NCBI GenBank assembly: GCA_019745775.1
Contig: JAIESR010000096.1
Coordinates: 89,101-153,100, forward strand
Reading direction: 5' to 3'
Origin: Xanthobacteraceae bacterium
GTDB lineage: Bacteria > Pseudomonadota > Alphaproteobacteria > Rhizobiales > Xanthobacteraceae
Length of the DNA stretch: 64,000 bases
The notes under the pieces are model-generated. The model did not search any database, was not told where the DNA came from, and saw only the letters and a program-made list of their open reading frames with translations. The translations under genes and the position numbers were made by a program. Positions 8,519-54,225 of this stretch are shown here, piece after piece. How positions within the stretch are numbered: position 1 is the first letter of the stretch; each line of letters begins with the position of its first letter.

Positions 8519-11500
8519 ATGATCTCCGCAAGCTTCAAACTGTCGCTGATCCTGTACGGGCTCTCGGTGATGTTGCGCTACCAGCGCTGGCGGCACGAGT
8601 CGTTCCGCAAGCGGCTGAAGGAGCGCAATTTCACCGCGCAGATCATGGCGCGCGACGAGGAATGCGGCCGCTGGTTCGAGTTCAAGGACGGTCGCATCCG
8701 CACCGGCGCTGGCCTGCACCCCGCGCCCGACTGCAAGCTGATGTTCAAGAACGCGGCCACCGGCGTCACGCTTTTGACACCGCCGATCAACTGGCTGCGC
8801 CAGATCAACGCGCAGAAGGATTTCGTGCTGTCGGTCGACGGGCCGGAAGACCTCACCAACTGGTTCGCCCAGACGGTGATGATGAGCCAGTCCGCGGGCC
8901 TGAAGATGGGCGTGCGCATGGAGGACGGCTCCATGCGCTATTGCAACATGACCAATGGCGGGCCCGTCTTCATCTACGTGAAGGACGGCAAGATCGTCCG
9001 CATGACGCCGATCGACCTCGCCGACGACGACGGTGCGTCGTTCACCATCGAGGCGCGCGGCGTGAAGCTCACGCCGCCGCGCAAGACGACGCTGGCCCCG
9101 CACGGGCAGAACGCGAAGTCGATCGTCTACTCGCCCGACCGCCTGCTCTATCCGATGAAGCGCGTCGACTTCGACCCGAACGGCGCGCGCAATCCGCAGA
9201 ACCGCGGCAAATCAGGCTACGTGCGCATCTCCTGGGAAGAGGCGATCAAGATCGTCACCGACGAGATCAAGCGCCAGAAGCGCGAGCATGGGCCGGGCGC
9301 GATCGCCGTGTCGCATGGGTCGCACCACACCTGGGGCAATGTCGGCTACTACCTCTCGGCGCTGTTCCGCTTCGCCAACGCGATCGGCATGACGCGCGTG
9401 CACCACAATCCCGACTCCTGGGAAGGCTGGTACTGGGGCGCGGTGCATCACTGGGGCTACACGCTGCGCGTCGGCCAGTCGGAAACCTACGGCACGGTCG
9501 AGGACTGCCTGCAGAACTGCGACATGATCGTGTCGTGGGCGGCCGATCCGGAGTCGACCTCAGGCTCCTACGGCGCGCAGGAAGGCACCGTGCGCCGGCA
9601 GTGGCTGAAGGACCCGAAGCTCGGCATCAAGGTCGTGCACGTCGATCCCTACTACAACGCCACCGCGCAGTTCCTGCCCGGCAAGTGGTTCGCGCCGAAG
9701 CCGACCACCTCGGTCGCGATGGCGATGGCGATTGCCTACGTGTGGGTGAAGGAAGGCCTCTATCACAAGGAATACGTCGAGACCCACACCATCGGCTTCG
9801 ACAAGTGGAAGGACTATCTGCTCGGCGTCGAGGACGGCATCCCGAAAACGCCCGAGTGGCAGGAGAAGGAAACCGGGGTCCCGGCGAAGGACGTGCGTGC
9901 GCTCGCGCGCGAGTGGGGACGCAAGCGCGTCTATCTCGCGCCCGGCGGCTGGGGCAACGGCCACGGCGGCGCCTGCCGCAACCAGACCGGCATCCAGTGG
10001 GCGCGCGTGATGGTGTGCCTCTCGGCGATGCAGGGCCTGGGCAAGCCCGGCTGCAACATGGGCAATCTGCAATGGGGCTGCCCGCTCGATTTCAATTTCT
10101 ATTTCCCGGGCTACTCCGAAGGCGGCATGTCCGGCGATCTCGAGAACACGGCGATGCCGGTCGAGCTCTACCAGCGCATGCCGCAACTGCCGACCATGAA
10201 CTCGAACGGCCAGACCATTCCGCGCATCTGGATGCCGGAAGCGATCACCGAAGGCAAAGCCGAAGGCTATCGCTGGGTCGGCAAGTCGATCGAGCACCAG
10301 TTCGGCAAGTTCATGTATCCCGCTGCCGGCCATTCGCCGGTGCACATGCTCTACAAGTACGGCGGCTCGATCCTCTCGACGATGAACAACACCAATCGTT
10401 GGGTGAAGATGTACCAGTCGGAAAACCTCGAATTCGTCGTCAACCAGTCGATCTGGTTCGAGGGCGAGGCGAAGTTCGCCGACATCATCCTGCCGGCCTG
10501 CACCAATTTCGAGCGCGTCGACATCTGCGAGTGGGCGGGCCTCGGCGGCTACGGCCATCACGGGCAGCAGCAGCTCAATCACCGGGTGATCGTGTTCCAG
10601 GCACCGGCGATCGAGCCCATGGGCGAGTCGAAGTCCGACTTCTGGATCTTCAACGAGATCGCCAAGCCGCTCGGTCTCGCCAACTATTTCTCGGAAGGCT
10701 GCAACGAGCTCGACTGGGTCTACCGCATCTATCTCGCGTCCGACCTGCCGAAGGTGATTTCGTTCAAAGAGCTGCTCAAGCGCGGCTACTACGTCGTGCC
10801 CGCCGAAAAAGAGAAGCTCCGCGCGCCGGTGTCGTTCCGCTGGTTCTGGGAGAACCGCAAGAAGGACGTGCCGGAGGCGCAGCCGCTGCCGTCCGACTAC
10901 ACCGAGGAGTATCTGCGCGGCCTGCAGACGCAGTCGGGCAAGCTCGAGTTCGAGTGCAACAGCCTCAAGCGCGTCAACGATCCGGAGCGTCCGCCGATCG
11001 TCAAGTACGAGCCGGCGGCCGACGGCACGCATTCACCGGATTTCGCGCGCTATCCGCTGCAGATGCTGACGCCGCATTCCAAATACTCGTTCCACACCCA
11101 GGGCGACGGCAAGGATTCGTTCCTGCTCAACATCGAGGACCATCGGGTGAAGGTCGAGGGCTACTACTACTGGATCATGCGGCTCAACGCCGATGACGCG
11201 GCGGCGCGCGGCATCAAGAAGCATGACCTCGTGAAGGTGTTCAACGATCGCGGCGCCGTCATCTGCGCGGCATTGCCGACGCAGCGGCTGCCGCGCGGCG
11301 TCTGCCACGGCTACGAGTCGTCGGCCGTCTACGATCCGATGGGCGAGCCCGGCAAGTCGGTCGACCGCGGCGGCTGTCTCAACCTTCTGACGCCGCACAA
11401 GTCGCAGACGAAGTCGACCCACGCGCTCGCCGGCGCCAATGCGCTGGTGCAGGTCGAGCTGTGGGACCGCCGCACCGAGCACATGTCGGAGACCTTCGCC

Positions 11501-46314: not shown

Positions 46315-47054
46315 GCGGCACCCAACACATCTACGTCGTGGACGACGAGGCGCCGGCGCGCGAGATGGTCGGCGACTATCTCAAGCTGCACGGCTTCGAG
46401 GTGACGCTGTGCGACGGCGGCAGGACGCTGCGCGAAGCGATCGCCAAGCAGTCGCCCGACCTCATCATCCTCGATCTCAACATGCCGGAGGAGGACGGTC
46501 TGTCGATCGTGCGCGCGCTCAAGCAGCACGGCACGGTGCCGATCATCATGCTGACCGCGACCGCTTCGCCGATCGATCGCGTGGTCGGGCTCGAGCTTGG
46601 CGCCGACGACTACCTGGCGAAGCCGTGCGAGCTGCGGGAGCTGCTCGCACGGGTACGCTCGGTGCTGCGCCGGAGCGCGACGGCGCCGGCGCCCCAGGTA
46701 ACCGCCGCGGCGGGCGAGGCCGCGAGCGCGCCGATCCGGTTCGGCACCAAATGGCTTGACGTCAATGCGCAGGTGCTGCGCGACGAGGACGGCAACGAGC
46801 ATCCGCTGGTGTCGTCCGAGTTCGCGCTGCTCAAGGCCTTCGCCGAGAACCCCAAGCGCGTGCTTTCGCGCGAGCGCCTGCTCGATCTCGCCGAGGCGCG
46901 CGACCGCGAGGCGTTCGACCGCGCCATCGACGTGCGCATTACCCGCATCCGGCGCAAGATCGAGCCCGATCCGGCGCATCCGACCGTAATCCGCACGGTG
47001 CGCGGCTCCGGCTACCTGTTCTCGCCCGACGGCAGCGGCGGCGATCCGCCGTAG
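46311..47054 (+). CDS. OmpR-family response regulator
   Basis: 247 residues, ATGA overlap with the previous gene. Receiver with IYVVDDEAPAREMVGDYL, phospho-acceptor D55 in IILDLNMPEEDG and K in YLAKPCELRELL. C-terminal winged helix with TRIRRKIEPDPAHPTVIRTV. It is the output of the TRAP-linked kinase cascade; the target genes are not evident from nearby sites. The 37-bp gap to the glycosyltransferase gene suggests that gene has its own weak start. Confidence 0.95.
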   Translation: MSGTQHIYVVDDEAPAREMVGDYLKLHGFEVTLCDGGRTLREAIAKQSPDLIILDLNMPEEDGLSIVRALKQHGTVPIIMLTATASPIDRVVGLELGADDYLAKPCELRELLARVRSVLRRSATAPAPQVTAAAGEAASAPIRFGTKWLDVNAQVLRDEDGNEHPLVSSEFALLKAFAENPKRVLSRERLLDLAEARDREAFDRAIDVRITRIRRKIEPDPAHPTVIRTVRGSGYLFSPDGSGGDPP

Positions 47055-47091
47055 CGCGCGGGCCGGTCGCCTCATTGGGAATTCCGATTCC

Positions 47092-48093
47092 GTGAATCCG
47101 GCAGTATCCGTCATCATCGCCGTGCGAAATCCCGGGCGATTCCTGGAACCGGCGCTGCAAAGTCTCGCCGATCAGACCTTCACGGACTATGAGGCCATCA
47201 TCGTCGACAACGGCAGCGACGACGGCACCGGCCGGATTCTCGCCGATTGGGCGGCAAAAGACGATCGGATCAGCGTGTATCCGCATCGATCGATCGGCCT
47301 TGCGAGGTGCCTGAACTACGGGGCGTCGATTGCCCGCGCGCCGCTCATCGCGCGGCTCGACGGCGACGACATCCTGCTGCCGGATCGCCTGGCGGTGCAA
47401 CACGCGCGCATGTCGAAGGACGCCGATCTCGGCCTCCTGGGTGCGTGCGTCGACCTGATCGACGGCGAGGACCGGCCGCTCGGACGGCGCCGGCTGCCAT
47501 TGGCGGATGCGGAATTGCGGGGCTTTCTTCGGACCGGAAATCCGTTCGTCCACTCCACGATCATGATGCGCAAAGCAGCCTTCGACGCCGTCGGCGGCTA
47601 TCGCGTCGGGCTCAGGCTATGTGAGGACTTCGACCTGTGGTGTCGAATCGCGGCCGTCACCCGGATCGCCAATTGCGAGGAGGTGCTGGCACGCTATCGC
47701 ATCCACGAAAGCTCGATGTCGGCGGGACGGCCGATCCGGCTGGCGATCGCGGACACCTGCATCATCGCCGCCACGCGGGCACGCGAGTCGGGAGGCCCGG
47801 AGCCGTTCGCGTCCGGGCGCCCGCAGCTGCGGCGCGCCCTGGCGATACTCGATATCTCCCGCGATGAAATCAGGTATCGCGTGCTGAAGACCGTTGTCGG
47901 CGTCGCACGCATGGCGATGGTCCGCGGCGACGACCAGCTTGCCAGGCGACTCCGTGCGCGGGCATATTCGGTCGCCTGGGGCTTGTCGTTCCGGAGCTAT
48001 GGCCGGGGACTTGCCCGTATTCTAGCGTCATATTTCTCGGCCAATACCCGCGTACGACGCAAAGCGCTCGTAGGCCGCTTGTTCGGCTCATAG
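47092..48093 (+). CDS. Glycosyltransferase family 2 protein
   Basis: 333 residues from a GTG start, no strong ribosome site. GT-A fold: VSVIIAVRNPGRFLEPALQS, then the acceptor/UDP-binding LIARLDGDDILLPDRLAVQH with a DGDD metal site. The C-terminal YRVGLRLCEDFDLWCRIAAV holds the catalytic ED-type acid. It transfers an activated sugar, probably at the inner membrane. It converges with the glycosyltransferase-P450 fusion, 29 bp apart, so the two may belong to one glycosylation locus. Confidence 0.92.
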   Translation: MNPAVSVIIAVRNPGRFLEPALQSLADQTFTDYEAIIVDNGSDDGTGRILADWAAKDDRISVYPHRSIGLARCLNYGASIARAPLIARLDGDDILLPDRLAVQHARMSKDADLGLLGACVDLIDGEDRPLGRRRLPLADAELRGFLRTGNPFVHSTIMMRKAAFDAVGGYRVGLRLCEDFDLWCRIAAVTRIANCEEVLARYRIHESSMSAGRPIRLAIADTCIIAATRARESGGPEPFASGRPQLRRALAILDISRDEIRYRVLKTVVGVARMAMVRGDDQLARRLRARAYSVAWGLSFRSYGRGLARILASYFSANTRVRRKALVGRLFGS

Positions 48094-48122
48094 GCGTGAC
48101 ACCATCGGCGACCGGCTGCGCG

Positions 48123-50276
48123 TCAGCCACCCGCCGCGCGCGGCGAGAATGAAATCTTCGCTTCGAGATTGGGCTCCCAATGGTACGGCCCGAGTTGCGC
48201 CGCGCCGGGGTTGTCGACGGTGCAGATAAAGTTGGAAACGAGCTCCTCGACAAACAGCGCGGTCAAAGACATCGTCAGGTCGGCGCCGAGGCACCGGTGC
48301 TTGTCCAATCCGAACGGCGCGAATGCATCGGCGTCATAACGGCGTCCAACGAAACGCTCCGGTCGATATGCGAACGGTTCCGGGAAAACGCGATCGTCCT
48401 TGTGACTCTCCCAAAGGCAGAGGCGCACGATCGTGTCCTGGGGAAAGAACATGCCGTCGAATGTCACGTCTGATTTTACTTCGCGATAGAGCACCTCGCT
48501 CTGCTCGAGCCGCAGCGTCTCCAGAATGACGGCTTCGATCAGCGCATTTGCTTCGGTCTTGTCCGCCGTGAGCGCCGTCGCGATACGCTCCGCGGCGTGC
48601 TGGTGCATCGCGAGATGCCACAAGACCCAGTGCCAGAGACTGTAGACGTCGAAGTGCGCGGGCTCGAACAGATAGGCGAGGTTGCCGACCGCGGTCGGAT
48701 CGTCCGATCCGCTCTCGACGAGCTGCCGCAGGGCGCTGGGCCTTTCCGCGCCGGCGTCACTGCTTCTCATCGCACGTGCCATTCGCTCGACGCACTGCAC
48801 GATCCCGGCAAACGCAGCGCCCGCCTGCGCCTCGATGTGGCGAACCGGATGCTCGGAACCAAAGCGCCGATAAAGCTGCATCAGGTTGCCGAACTCTTTC
48901 GAGCCGGCAGGCACGCCGAACAGCACCATCAGCATGATGGTCGATGTCATCGTCCGCAGCGTAGCGCGGATCTCCTGGTGCGAGCGCCGGGGAGCGCGCG
49001 AGAGAGCAGCGAGATTGTCGCGAACGATCTGGCGGACATCGTCGGCATGGGCGGATACCGGCACAGCCTGGAACGCCCTCAACAGGACCCGGCGGTAATG
49101 CTGGTGGGTATCTCCCCGCATCGCGCGGATCCAACCCTTGGGCACCAGCGTCGGCAGTTCGATCGAACGCGGCACGACCACGTCTTCGTTCTCGGCGACA
49201 AGCCGCCGGCCGCGTGCATGGCCGATGACGCATGTGGTGTAACGGCCGTGCCACCACGTCTTGAACACCGGCCCGAACCGGGCGGCGGCCTTCATGACAT
49301 AGCGCTGGTCGAGGTCCATGCTTCGATCCGACGGGTCGAGCCCGCCGGGCGGCAAGGTTGCCCGACAAATGCGGGCATGCAGCGCATAGCGCAATCCGGT
49401 GACCGCAGCGGACAAGCGCGTCCGAATTCGGCGCCGGCGAACGCCCATCACGCGCGGGGGCGTGCTGCCGTCGAACCGACGCCGCCACAGGTCCCGCACC
49501 CAGGACTGGCGCCAGTATTTGTCGATGGCACGCCGCGTCTTGAGTTCACGCCACCACGTCGCCCGGTCGTCTGCGTCAGGTCCCAATAGATCGTGCATCA
49601 GGCTGCCGCGAGGCGCATCGCCATCCCATCGGATGCCGACATGCCGAAGCTCGTGCGCCCATAGGTGGAGAAACAGCGCGCCTTTCGTCCGGCGCTGAAG
49701 CTCGGACTTGTACTCCGGCAGCAACAGCAGCGGCGCTTCAAGCCAGTGCAGCGGATAGAATTGATGGCTCGTGCCCGCTCGCCCCGGCGGCTCGAACCCA
49801 TGCAGGACCTTCGATATCAAGTGCGGGCCCGTAGCCCCCCAATTTGGATCGTCGGCCGCCGCACGCGCCCCTGCGGCCAGTTGCGCGAGCTTCTCATCAC
49901 CGCTTGGGAACTTGAGGACCGCGACATTGACGAGACCCGGCTCCTGCTCCGCCCATGCGTAGTCCGTCTCCGGCAATCGGTCGGTGAGGCAGACGACGTC
50001 GGCGTCGACCCACCACCCGCCTTGTTTGTGCAGCAGCTCGTATCGGAACGCATCCGCGAAGGCGGCGATGCTGCGGTAACGCGGCAGATCGTCCACGCTC
50101 ATGACAAGCGCGGCGTCGGCGGGCTCGACCCCCGGCGGCGGATCGAGCGATCCGTAGGCGTGCAACCGCACGCGGTGGCCCCGTTCCAGGAACGACCGTA
50201 TGCAGGCACGCGCGTAGGACGGCAACGCGCCGCCGTGCCAGAACATGTTAACAGTCGTCGCCACCGGGTCCCCCAA
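48123..50276 (-). CDS. Glycosyltransferase (DXD, GT32-like) fused to a cytochrome P450
   Basis: 717 residues in one uninterrupted frame. The N-terminal part (about 1-250) starts NMFWHGGALPSYARACIRSF and has GGWWVDADVVCL with a DXD at 91-93, typical of GT32/capsular-type sugar transferases. From about 310 to 717 it is a P450: C-helix WIRAMRGDTHQHYRRVLLRA, ExxR as ETLR (E586-R589), PERF in YRPERFVG, and the heme loop FGLDKHRCLG with C662 as axial thiolate. The I-helix has AHFDVYSLWHWVLWHL, so the usual acid-Thr pair is absent (D-V and F at those places). The linker (about 255-310) is very basic. No transmembrane segment is obvious. Confidence 0.85.
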   Translation of the reverse strand: MGDPVATTVNMFWHGGALPSYARACIRSFLERGHRVRLHAYGSLDPPPGVEPADAALVMSVDDLPRYRSIAAFADAFRYELLHKQGGWWVDADVVCLTDRLPETDYAWAEQEPGLVNVAVLKFPSGDEKLAQLAAGARAAADDPNWGATGPHLISKVLHGFEPPGRAGTSHQFYPLHWLEAPLLLLPEYKSELQRRTKGALFLHLWAHELRHVGIRWDGDAPRGSLMHDLLGPDADDRATWWRELKTRRAIDKYWRQSWVRDLWRRRFDGSTPPRVMGVRRRRIRTRLSAAVTGLRYALHARICRATLPPGGLDPSDRSMDLDQRYVMKAAARFGPVFKTWWHGRYTTCVIGHARGRRLVAENEDVVVPRSIELPTLVPKGWIRAMRGDTHQHYRRVLLRAFQAVPVSAHADDVRQIVRDNLAALSRAPRRSHQEIRATLRTMTSTIMLMVLFGVPAGSKEFGNLMQLYRRFGSEHPVRHIEAQAGAAFAGIVQCVERMARAMRSSDAGAERPSALRQLVESGSDDPTAVGNLAYLFEPAHFDVYSLWHWVLWHLAMHQHAAERIATALTADKTEANALIEAVILETLRLEQSEVLYREVKSDVTFDGMFFPQDTIVRLCLWESHKDDRVFPEPFAYRPERFVGRRYDADAFAPFGLDKHRCLGADLTMSLTALFVEELVSNFICTVDNPGAAQLGPYHWEPNLEAKISFSPRAAGG

Positions 50277-50412
50277 CGCCGCGAAGGCCCCCTAACCTCC
50301 AGGATCGGCGGGCGGGCGCTCCATCCACGTTAGACCCTGAAGGTTGTGAAAACACCCCACTTCGTAATAGTTTGAAAGCAGCGCACGCACCGAAAAGCGG
50401 CCACGACACGCC

Positions 50413-53400
50413 ATGGAACGCTCGTTCAAAAAGGAAGTGGAATCGCTGAAGCTCGGCGACGGCGACATCTTCCGCGGCGAAGGCATCCTCGCGGTCACCA
50501 AGGCGCTCTTGCAGTCCGGCGTCAGCTATGTCGGCGGCTACCAGGGCGCGCCGGTGTCGCACCTGCTCGACGTCATGGTCGAGGCCGAGGACCTGCTCGC
50601 GGACCTCGGGGTGCATGTCGAGACCTGCACCAACGAAGCGTCGGCGGCGGCCATGCTCGGCGCTTCGATCAACTATCCGCTGCGCGGCGCCGTCACCTGG
50701 AAGTCGATCGTCGGCACCAATGTGGCGGCCGACGCGCTCTCGAACCTTGCCTCGCCCGGCGTCACCGGCGGCGTGATGATCATCCTCGGCGAAGACTACG
50801 GCGAAGGCGCGAGCGTGATCCAGGAACGCTCGTATGCCTATGCGCTGAAGTCGTCGATGTGGCTGCTCGACCCGCGGCCCGACCTGCCGACCATCGTGCG
50901 GATGGTGGAGAAGGGCTTCGAGCTCTCGGAGGCGAGCCACGCCCCGGTCATGATGGAACTGCGCATCCGCGCCTGTCACGTCACCGGCGAGTTCGCGGCC
51001 AAGACCAACAGGCGCGCCGCGTTCTCCGGCCGCAACCGCATCCCCGGCCCGCCGCGCTTTGAATACGATCGCCTCGCCCATCCGCCGGCGCTGTTCGTCC
51101 ACGAGCGGCTCAAGGTCGAGGACCGCCTGCCGGCCGCGATCGATTTCATCCGCGAGCACAAGCTTAACGAGATCATCGCCGGCGACCTCGACGACATCGG
51201 CATCATCGTCTGCGGCGGGCTCACGTCGAATCTCCTGCGCGCGCTCGAGCGACTCGACCTCGCCAAGGTCGACGGCACCTCGCGCCTACCGATGCTGGTG
51301 CTCAACTGCGTCTATCCGCTCGTGCCCGACGAAGTGCGCACGTTTTGCGCCGACAAGCGCGCGGTGCTGGTGGTCGAGGAAGGCTCGCCCGAATACATCG
51401 AGCAGCAGATCAACGTCGAATTGCGCCGCGCCGATATCCAGGCGCGCATCTTCGGCAAAGGCGCGCTGCCGAAGACCGGCGACTACACGTCGGACGTCCT
51501 GCTCAACGGCCTTGCCGCGTTCGTGCGCGAAGCCCGTCCCGCCGGCATCGAAGCCGACGCGATCGATACGCGCGTGCAGGCGATGCTCGCCCACAAGCCC
51601 GCCGCCGCGGCATCGCTCGGCGACCTGCCGGTGCGGCCGCCGACGTTCTGCACCGGATGCCCGGAACGGCCGGTGTTTTCCGCCATCAAGCTGATGCAGC
51701 GCGAATTGGGCCCGACCCACATCAGCGGCGACATCGGCTGCCATGCGTTCGCGACCTTCGCGCCGTTCAGCATGGGAAATTCCATTCTGGGTTATGGCAT
51801 GTCGCTCGCCAGCGCCGCCGCGGTGACGCCGAATCTCGACCGCCGCCCGATCGCCGTGATGGGCGACGGCGGCTTCTGGCACAACGGCCTGATCACCGGC
51901 GTGACGTCGAACCTGTTCAACAAGGGCGACGGCGTGTTGATCGTGATGCAGAACGGCTACGCCTCCGCCACCGGCCAGCAATACCTGCCGTCGTCGAGCG
52001 CCAGCCGGCTCGGCGCCGCGCCGGGGATGGACATCGAGCACACGCTGCGTTCGCTCGGCGTCACCTGGATGCGCAAGGTGCGCACCTATGGCGTGGCGAA
52101 GATGACGGCGACACTGAAGGAGGCGATGCGCACCGCCGAACGCGGCCTCAAGGTGATTATCGCCGATGGCGAATGCCAGCTTGCGCGCCAACGTCGCGTG
52201 CGCGCCGAAGATGCCGAGAAGCTCAAGCGCGGCGCGCGCGTCACGAAAACACGCTACGGCGTCGACGACGCGATCTGCACCGGCGACCACTCCTGCATCC
52301 GCCTGTCGGGCTGCCCGTCGCTGACGGTGAAGCCCAACCCCGATCCGCTGCGCACCGATCCGGTGGCGGCGGTGATCGAAAGCTGTGTCGGCTGCGGCCT
52401 GTGCGGCGAGGTCGCGCACGCCGCGGTGCTATGCCCGTCGTTCTACCGGGCGGAGGTGGTGCGCAATCCCGGAGTGTGGGATCGCGCACTGCATAGCTTC
52501 CGCCAAAGCGTCATCGGATGGATGGACGGGGCTCGTGCCCCAGCGTCCCCTCCCCCCTTGCGGGGGAGGGACAGGGAGGGGTGTGCGGCAGGCACCACCG
52601 CTTCCGAAACGACCCCCCTCCCCAACCCTCCCCCGCAAGGGGGGAGGGAGCAGACCGGGTCCGGTCGCAAGATCGCGAGCAAGAGCCTCGAGAGCGCGCA
52701 ACGCCCCATCACGCTGCTCATCGCCGCGCTGGGCGGCGAAGGTGGCGGCGTGCTCACCAACTGGATCGTGGCTGCCGCGGAGCAGCAGAATTTTCCGGTG
52801 CAGTCGACCTCGATCCCGGGCGTCGCGCAGCGCACCGGCGCGACCACCTACTACATCGAGATCATGCCGCAGCCGTCGAAGGACGGCGGCAAAGAGGCCG
52901 GCAGGCCGGTGCTGGCGCTCGCGCCCGGCGTCGGCGACGTCGACGTGATGATGGCGAGCGAGCTGATGGAAGCCGGCCGCGCCGTCGCCGCCGGTTTCGT
53001 CACCGCCGACCGCACGCTCGCGATCGCATCGACCTCGCGCTTCTTCGTGATGGGCGAGAAGATCGCGCTGGGCGACGGCCGCTACGACTCGGCGAAGCTC
53101 AAGCAGGCGATCATCGCCAATTCCAAGGCGCACCTCCTGATCGACATGGAAGCGATCGCGCGCAAGCACGGCGTGTTCATCAATTCGGTGATGCTCGGCA
53201 TCATCGCGGGCTCGGGCCGCCTGCCGATCCCGGTCGAGGCGTTCGAGGCCGCGGTCCGCGCCGACGGCAAGGGTGTCGACGGCAACCTGCGCGGCTTCCG
53301 CGCCGGGCTCGAGGCCGTGCAGAAGCCTGATTCGGCCGGTGCCTCAGCGCCGAAGCAGGCGTCGGCCCCCGCGCCCGCCTCGGATTTCGAGTCCGGCATC

Positions 53401-54225
53401 GCGCGTTTGCCGGAAGCGGCGCGCGACATCATCCGCGAGGGCGTGCGCCGGCTCACCGGCTATCAGGACCAAGCCTATGCGCGGCTCTATCTCGACCGCC
53501 TCGCCCCCATCCGCGATGCCGACACGCGCGCCAAGGCCGAAGGCCGCCTGCTCCGCGAGACCGCGCGGCATCTCGCCGTGCGCATGTCCTACGAGGATGT
53601 GATCCGGGTCGCGCAGGCGAAGACCGATCCCGCGCGCTTTGCCCGTATCGCAGCCGAGGTCGCGGCCAGGCCCGGCGAGCCGGTGAAGGTGTTCGAATTC
53701 CTCAAGCCCGGCGTCGAGGAATTGTGTTCGGTGCTGCCGCCGTCGCTGGCGCGGCGCATCCTTGCGTTCGCCGAGCACCGCGAGAAGCTCGCGCGCCTCC
53801 ACTGGGGCATGGAGGTCAACACCACCTCGGTGTCGGGATACCTGCGCTTCCGTACGCTTGCGGCGCTGCGCCGCTGGCGCCCGCGCACCTACCGCTACGC
53901 CGAAGAGCAGCGCGCGATCGAGCGCTGGCTCGCACTGATCGTCGAAGGCTCCACGCACTCCGCCGGACTCGCGCTCGAGATCGCGGAATGCGCGCGCCTG
54001 ATCAAGGGCTATGGCGACACCCACAAGCGCGGCACCGGCAACTACGCCCTCATCGAGGCCCACGTCATCCGTCCGGCGCTCGCCGGGCAGATCCCGCTGC
54101 GGCAGGCCGCCGATGCCGTCGCCTCCGCACGGACGGCGGCGCTGGTCGACCCCGACGGCGAGAGCCTCGGCAAATGCCTGGCGGCCATCGGCACGCCCGA
54201 GCCCGCGCGCATCGCGGCGGAATAA
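50413..54225 (+). CDS. Indolepyruvate ferredoxin oxidoreductase-family fusion (IorA-IorB-like plus C-terminal DUF)
   Basis: 1270 residues. IorA-type pyrimidine domain (about 10-200: GILAVTKALLQSGVSYVGGY), ThDP domain with PPTFCTGCPERPVF and GDGGFWHNGLITGVTSNLFN, a [4Fe-4S] motif CVGCGLCGEVAHAAVLCP, then a linker (about 711-746) made of a palindromic repeat, then the IorB-like gamma domain (LIAALGGEGGGVLTNWIVAA) and a C-terminal DUF6537-like region (YQDQAYARLYLDRLAPI). The reaction would be oxidative decarboxylation of an aryl- or branched 2-oxo acid to an acyl-CoA with ferredoxin. Divergent from the P450 fusion, 136 bp between starts. Confidence 0.9.
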   Translation: MERSFKKEVESLKLGDGDIFRGEGILAVTKALLQSGVSYVGGYQGAPVSHLLDVMVEAEDLLADLGVHVETCTNEASAAAMLGASINYPLRGAVTWKSIVGTNVAADALSNLASPGVTGGVMIILGEDYGEGASVIQERSYAYALKSSMWLLDPRPDLPTIVRMVEKGFELSEASHAPVMMELRIRACHVTGEFAAKTNRRAAFSGRNRIPGPPRFEYDRLAHPPALFVHERLKVEDRLPAAIDFIREHKLNEIIAGDLDDIGIIVCGGLTSNLLRALERLDLAKVDGTSRLPMLVLNCVYPLVPDEVRTFCADKRAVLVVEEGSPEYIEQQINVELRRADIQARIFGKGALPKTGDYTSDVLLNGLAAFVREARPAGIEADAIDTRVQAMLAHKPAAAASLGDLPVRPPTFCTGCPERPVFSAIKLMQRELGPTHISGDIGCHAFATFAPFSMGNSILGYGMSLASAAAVTPNLDRRPIAVMGDGGFWHNGLITGVTSNLFNKGDGVLIVMQNGYASATGQQYLPSSSASRLGAAPGMDIEHTLRSLGVTWMRKVRTYGVAKMTATLKEAMRTAERGLKVIIADGECQLARQRRVRAEDAEKLKRGARVTKTRYGVDDAICTGDHSCIRLSGCPSLTVKPNPDPLRTDPVAAVIESCVGCGLCGEVAHAAVLCPSFYRAEVVRNPGVWDRALHSFRQSVIGWMDGARAPASPPPLRGRDREGCAAGTTASETTPLPNPPPQGGREQTGSGRKIASKSLESAQRPITLLIAALGGEGGGVLTNWIVAAAEQQNFPVQSTSIPGVAQRTGATTYYIEIMPQPSKDGGKEAGRPVLALAPGVGDVDVMMASELMEAGRAVAAGFVTADRTLAIASTSRFFVMGEKIALGDGRYDSAKLKQAIIANSKAHLLIDMEAIARKHGVFINSVMLGIIAGSGRLPIPVEAFEAAVRADGKGVDGNLRGFRAGLEAVQKPDSAGASAPKQASAPAPASDFESGIARLPEAARDIIREGVRRLTGYQDQAYARLYLDRLAPIRDADTRAKAEGRLLRETARHLAVRMSYEDVIRVAQAKTDPARFARIAAEVAARPGEPVKVFEFLKPGVEELCSVLPPSLARRILAFAEHREKLARLHWGMEVNTTSVSGYLRFRTLAALRRWRPRTYRYAEEQRAIERWLALIVEGSTHSAGLALEIAECARLIKGYGDTHKRGTGNYALIEAHVIRPALAGQIPLRQAADAVASARTAALVDPDGESLGKCLAAIGTPEPARIAAE
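52543..52651. repeat. Palindromic repeat, family B variant, inside the IOR-like gene
   Basis: Arms CCCTCCCCCCTTGCGGGGGA (left) and CTCCCCCGCAAGGGGGGAGG (right) with AGGGAGGGGTGTG and CCCCCCTCCCCAACC between. Its length keeps the frame, giving a proline/glycine/arginine-rich linker at residues about 711-746. An example of an intergenic-type repeat tolerated between protein domains. Confidence 0.88.

Follow-up and report, generated by a model that had tools for sequence, protein, structure and literature searches.

Several systems are known in which a cytochrome P450 or a glycosyltransferase (GT) shares a chain, or works together, with a second protein. CYP102 is a natural P450–reductase fusion (PMC10927867), and PpoA/CYP6001 and CYP5619 are P450–heme peroxidase/dioxygenase fusions (PMC4486971). 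EfuA and FsoA are terpene cyclase–GT fusions that act at non-consecutive steps in the synthesis of fungal triterpenoids (PMC12667498). A GT that works with a P450-fold partner is represented by EryCIII–EryCII (PMC3391682), ApyO is a biaryl-crosslinking P450 of RiPP synthesis (PMC11117315, PMC13192836), and a marine-bacterial P450 is reported to demethylate 6-O-methyl-D-galactose (PMC10033563). Here, a 64,000-nucleotide stretch of DNA from a Xanthobacteraceae bacterium (contig JAIESR010000096.1; hereafter the window) was analyzed, in which one open reading frame joins a GT to a P450. The folds themselves are known, and what is new is their presence in one chain; no natural GT–P450 fusion was recognised in a limited search of open-licence PMC literature, which is a weak negative.

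Architecture of the fusion and class of its two halves

A single-chain fusion of a GT and a P450 had been proposed in the initial annotation, and this was borne out: both domains were found in the 717-residue frame (Table 1) and the junction between them recurs in other protein clusters, as described below. Use of an alternative GTG start at 50264 would yield a protein of 713 residues. A structure model of the full-length protein reached a pTM of only 0.69, and mutual packing of the two domains is not evident from it. The linker was also considered as a membrane anchor, a proposal that was rejected on account of its ordinary hydrophobic moment (0.06–0.45 in 18-residue segments, the maximum elsewhere in the protein being 0.70).

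Table 1. Position of the fusion gene, its parts and the surrounding block in the window
Feature	Position	Strand	Remarks
GT–P450 fusion ORF	48123..50276	minus	717 aa; TTG start
GT-A glycosyltransferase-like domain	49569..50261	minus	residues 6–236
DXD motif D91-A92-D93	49998..50006	minus	context FRYxLLxxxGGWWxDxDVxCL
Linker	49356..49475	minus	basic segment and predicted helix 277–303, then LPPG
Cytochrome P450 domain	48138..49355	minus	residues 308–713
I-helix segment P539-A-H-F-D543	48648..48662	minus	aligned to AGHET of CYP120A1
ExxR (586–589), then Q592-S593-E594 of the family	48495..48521	minus	
Heme-binding loop FAPFGLDKHRCLG	48285..48323	minus	contains Cys662
GT2 glycosyltransferase gene	47092..48093	plus	convergent with the fusion; PF00535, E 3.5e-24
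Block absent in sister genome G002	47038..50342		GT2, fusion and last codons of the response regulator

The N-terminal half has a GT-A fold with a DXD motif, both aspartates of which are kept in the 19 rows of the family alignment that cover them. Its score lies under every Pfam cutoff, including that of PF04488 (GT32 / Gly_transf_sug), with 20.2 bits against a gathering cutoff of 23. Caps_synth passes in the fused relatives P0024 and P0027, and PF04488 in P0123, a close GT-only relative. The label "GT32-like" previously given to this half is thus apt as regards the context of the DXD motif and the likeness to a GT-A fold, and does not extend to Pfam membership. The top fold matches include glycogenin and GT domains of bacterial toxins or effectors, at 10–15% identity. 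Glycogenin and the toxin/effector GTs glycosylate proteins, and with such enzymes among the top matches a protein acceptor is possible for the GT half. A separate observation concerns one genus of the family (g25; e.g. loci L083, L077 and L079), in which frames of about 600–716 residues have two DXD-type GT domain matches each and are probable tandem GT–GT proteins.

The C-terminal half scored 98.9 bits with the Pfam p450 model (cutoff 22.8; E 3.8e-28), and was matched to CYP120A1 by Foldseek (E 2.4e-19). In agreement with the initial annotation, the heme-thiolate Cys662 is kept in 47/47 covering rows and both E586 and R589 of the K-helix ExxR in 49/49, as is E594. It is the single P450 match in its own genome at E values up to 1e-10. 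In canonical monooxygenase P450s the I helix reads AGx[DE]T. At this site the fusion has Phe542 at the place of the acid and Asp543, kept in all 49 covering rows, at the place of the threonine; the acid–alcohol pair is absent and, because Phe-Asp stands for Glu-Thr, standard monooxygenation is uncertain. Peroxygenase P450s and some coupling P450s are also devoid of this pair. These residues suggest a polar pocket and a non-standard activation of oxygen, and the invariant aspartate at the threonine place constitutes a natural test of P450 oxygen activation.

Comparisons with named P450 types gave no assignment. ApyO (NF050147) is the best-scoring NCBIfam model for the fusion protein, with 91.5 bits against an equivalog cutoff of 525, and is also matched by 29/29 P450s of the family; the CYP152 peroxygenase model (NF053744) reached 31.4 bits against an equivalog cutoff of 600. 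No reductase or ferredoxin Pfam match, as expected for the self-sufficient CYP102/CYP116 type, was found within the 717 residues. EryCII-type activators have a P450 fold without the heme cysteine, which is kept here, and the fusion protein has no match to the NCBIfam GT-activator model TIGR04515; the NCBIfam model for GT activators derived from P450s is matched by 8 of the 29 family P450s.

Relatives, split forms and gene neighbourhood

A search of ca. 5.8 billion proteins, in which 7,996 candidates were scored, returned 50 matches. Besides the copy of the window protein itself, 18 other clusters span the GT–P450 junction, with 43–79% identity and with jgi, ena, lgn or src as sources. Seventeen have both halves (P0003–P0009, P0011, P0012, P0020–P0025, P0027 and P0029), of which P0027 and P0029 stop short of the heme loop, and P0009, P0011 and P0012 start within the GT domain; the eighteenth is the shorter P0039. 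Fused clades have an identical domain order and retain the segment preceding the P450. Among genomes, the fusion was found in 1 of 8 of the genus, 1 of 391 of the family, 1 of 385 of the class and 1 of 398 of the phylum, the one being its own genome in each set, with the best two candidates per genome scored in the last three sets; the remaining matches comprised one half only. Genome contigs yielded 0 loci in a first scan and 47 in a second, in each of which the match was confined to the GT side, and the 41 loci in viral contigs were all on the GT side. Among plasmids, five Mesorhizobium records carried the P450 half only, and no fusion; in the two that were read, the P450 is followed by a GT2 gene that overlaps it by 4 bases.

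The halves are also found as separate proteins in close relatives, with P450s that are 70–76% identical; in these split forms the linker, or the sequence immediately behind it, is where GT-only proteins end and P450-only proteins begin. Of 87 stand-alone P450s, eight come from the same source as a GT-only protein (257–299 residues) and from a longest contig of exactly equal size, and offsetting the sizes by 1–10 bases either way left 0–2 matches each, indicating that the eight are probably pairs of genes of one contig. This count made use of 118 of the 120 listed GT-only proteins, out of 781 that passed (P0114 had no contig and P0039 is fused), and of one source per protein where several were given; P0049/P0111, of equal size and from another source, was not counted. 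Fused and stand-alone forms are interspersed in a tree of 110 P450 domains, built by a "quick" method without four short rows, P0039 and P0002, which duplicates the window protein. A minimum of 10 state changes is required to account for the 18 fused rows, and supported branches make six of these changes unavoidable; shuffling gave 17. The tree contains long branches, and some rows scored as stand-alone may be truncated by contig ends. The pair was thus probably joined or split repeatedly, with its order kept. On the 3,390-bp contig L149, a GT2, a family P450 and a DXD-type GT are three adjacent genes, the GT2 gene being cut by the contig end. This P450 is 38% identical to the P450 half of the fusion over 393 residues, and the DXD-type GT, convergent with the P450 and 11 bases apart from it, is 36% identical to the GT half over 233 residues.

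The GT2 gene adjoins the fusion and points at it, as the initial annotation had stated, and both lie inside a single block that is absent in G002. In this sister genome the kinase, kinase-regulator and response-regulator genes have counterparts (88–92% identical) that stand directly before the indolepyruvate oxidoreductase gene, whose product is 97% identical to that of the window over the first 138 residues and 85% over its length. DNA homology ends at window position 47037 and restarts at 50343; between these points the window holds the GT2 and fusion genes tail to tail, with 29 bases between them and short ends, and G002 holds 325 bases without similarity. As a comparison with one sister, this fits both an insertion here and a deletion in G002. 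In the 2.6–8.5 kb before the oxidoreductase gene of G003, G004, G005, G007 and G009, the upstream regulator genes, GT2 and the fusion are all absent. The indolepyruvate oxidoreductase-like gene of the window (50413–54225) seems itself to contain part of a repeated element, in frame, at residues ~703–773, a stretch that matches several other contigs of its own genome.

A GT gene lies within 1.5 kb of the P450 in 7/10 readable loci of the family or, counting by genus with L093 and L095 taken as one, in 4/7. It is a GT2 in the window, and a GT2 plus a DXD-type GT in L149. On L093, an annotated Mesorhizobium plasmid, the P450 is followed by a GT2 with an overlap of 4 bases, and in L095 (G725) a P450 84% identical to that of L093 is likewise overlapped at its end by 4 bases of a GT2. 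All three loci of one genus of the order (g563; L150, L154 and L155) have a GT25 next to the P450, then a GT17 and, further on, a GT2, the GT2 of L155 being assigned by its near-identical first 60 residues; this conserved group is accompanied in L155 by a GT8 gene. The GT2 of the window gave no significant BLASTP match with that of G725, and its 31% identity to the L149 GT2 over 162 residues may reflect generic GT2 likeness. Next to the fusion there is no redox partner, nor was a flippase, polymerase or export gene seen there. In L098, L099 and L151 the scanned neighbours, which did not include a small ORF next to the P450 of L099, comprised no GT but a Hint_2 gene. The Hint_2 (PF13403) context spans three genera: L098 (7110–7934, also L069:2960–3712), L099 (L002:654–1253) and L151 (8272–8952). 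In L151 a phytanoyl-CoA dioxygenase-family gene (10331–11212), a second oxygenase-like gene of that locus, directly follows the P450.

As a control, 41 genomes were surveyed for other P450 loci; 30 were returned and that of the window was dropped, leaving 29, with flanks of ~1.5 kb, some of them one-sided or cut by contig ends, and with two loci lacking a P450 ORF by motif. From 125 ORFs called by codon score on both strands, a GT beside the P450 was found in probably 2/29 loci among the Pfam matches listed; UDPGT, EryCIII-like_C and Glyco_tran_28_C (GT1/GT28 type) occurred in two ORFs each, presumably the same two. Compared with this background, Fisher's test gave p 2e-4 for loci and 0.008 for genera with 66 of 72 Pfam rows considered; were the remaining six all GTs in other loci, p would rise to 0.02 for loci and to 0.15 for genera, where significance would be lost. 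The enrichment of GTs beside family P450s is thus a trend, not proof.

Proposed function and rival explanations

Since the same pair recurs as one gene or as neighbours, both halves probably work on a single sugar product of the cell surface, one building it and the other oxidising it. The recurrence of GTs beside family P450s (GT2, GT25, GT17, GT8 and DXD-type) favours a glycan or glycolipid as the product over a polyketide or terpenoid. The initial annotation had suggested a small product (a lipid, terpenoid or polyketide), which gained no support: the neighbours scanned or annotated at family loci included neither a terpene cyclase nor a PKS or NRPS. Judged by their residues, both catalytic centres look intact. 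The fusion may then be a bifunctional glycan-tailoring enzyme, a reading to which we assign an even chance of being right. Its GT domain would transfer a sugar onto a cell-surface glycan or glycolipid and its P450 domain would oxidise the product so glycosylated; the GT2 enzyme would contribute an adjacent sugar, and the electrons for the P450 would come from unlinked redox partners, or be replaced by peroxide. A nucleotide-sugar donor, the acceptor, the order of steps and the activity of both domains are presumed in this scheme.

Retention of the heme cysteine also bears on the alternative that the P450 half is no oxidase and stabilises the GT in a structural or allosteric role, like EryCII for EryCIII. 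P450-fold partners of GTs do exist (PMC3391682), matches to the GT-activator model occur in the family and the acid–alcohol pair is lost, all of which would suit such a role, as would the helix predicted in the linker before the P450, given that an extra N-terminal helix of EryCII contacts the GT according to the same source. However, the auxiliary proteins are described there as devoid of the heme cysteine, which is invariant here together with ExxR; EryCIII is made of two globular domains, unlike the GT-A-like domain of the fusion; and the window protein itself does not match the activator model. An EryCII-like scaffold is disfavoured because the cysteine is kept, and we consider this role improbable. 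The prominence of ApyO, a P450 that crosslinks RiPP tyrosines, among the models matched by the family, and the presence of protein-glycosylating enzymes among the closest folds of the GT part, would be consistent with a pair that modifies a peptide or protein, e.g. a RiPP-like product that receives its cross-links from the P450 and its sugar from the GT. This appears quite improbable in view of the ApyO score, far beneath its cutoff, and of the recurring neighbours, which are GTs typical of glycans; moreover, the 29 bases between the genes of the block and its short ends leave room for a tiny precursor gene at most, and visual reading of the sequence upstream of the fusion revealed a 10-codon ORF that has no aromatic residue.

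Two enzymes of one pathway could also share a chain for the sake of stoichiometry alone while acting at non-consecutive steps, for which EfuA/FsoA set a precedent (PMC12667498) and to which the recurrent change between fused and split states, suggesting that fusion is not essential, would lend weight; the kept domain order and the retained segment before the P450 suggest some gain from joining, and we regard this option as unlikely. The initial annotation had named as its refutation that the halves are always separate genes and the join an assembly error. Close relatives do have separate halves, bounded at the linker or immediately behind it, but the identical join in 18 other clusters of several sources refutes, for the family, an artefact in which an assembly or frameshift error merged neighbouring genes; with the forward coding frame also unbroken over the junction, such an error is hardly credible in this genome either.

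Returning to a bifunctional glycan-tailoring enzyme, a GT as fusion partner would, if true, put P450 chemistry inside glycan assembly; to our knowledge, P450s have rarely been credited with the oxidised sugars of such assembly. Partners for an otherwise orphan P450 family are indicated by its recurring fused and split forms, and the substrate is testable from one 2.2-kb gene. In a bolder and more tentative version, the family would represent an undescribed class of glycan-oxidising P450s, with Phe-Asp for the acid–alcohol pair, which evolved with DXD-type GTs, oxidise the sugar just attached and were repeatedly fused to and separated from them, the fusion and GT2 forming a moving two-gene cassette that rewrites the cell-surface glycan.

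Comparison with known systems

EryCIII–EryCII shares with the fusion a GT that works with a P450-fold partner, and differs in consisting of two chains, with a two-domain GT and a partner without the heme cysteine, where the fusion has one chain, a GT-A-like domain and the cysteine kept (PMC3391682). ApyO is the top-scoring named NCBIfam P450 model and, unlike the fusion, a stand-alone P450 in a peptide cluster (PMC11117315, PMC13192836), the score of 91.5 against 525 setting it further apart. The marine-bacterial enzyme resembles the proposed P450 activity in acting on a sugar, but it is catabolic and has a monosaccharide as substrate, and its abstract, as far as consulted, mentions no GT fusion (PMC10033563). 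Among GT families, GT32 / Gly_transf_sug, Caps_synth and Gb3_synth have in common with the fusion the context of the DXD motif and the GT-A fold, and are separated from it by scores below all cutoffs. EfuA/FsoA likewise hold a GT in one chain with an enzyme of the same pathway, which is a cyclase and not a P450 (PMC12667498). Like the GT–P450 frame, CYP102 (PMC10927867), PpoA/CYP6001 and CYP5619 (PMC4486971) combine a P450 and a second domain in a single chain; as described in these sources their partner is a redox or dioxygenase domain, whereas here it is a GT.
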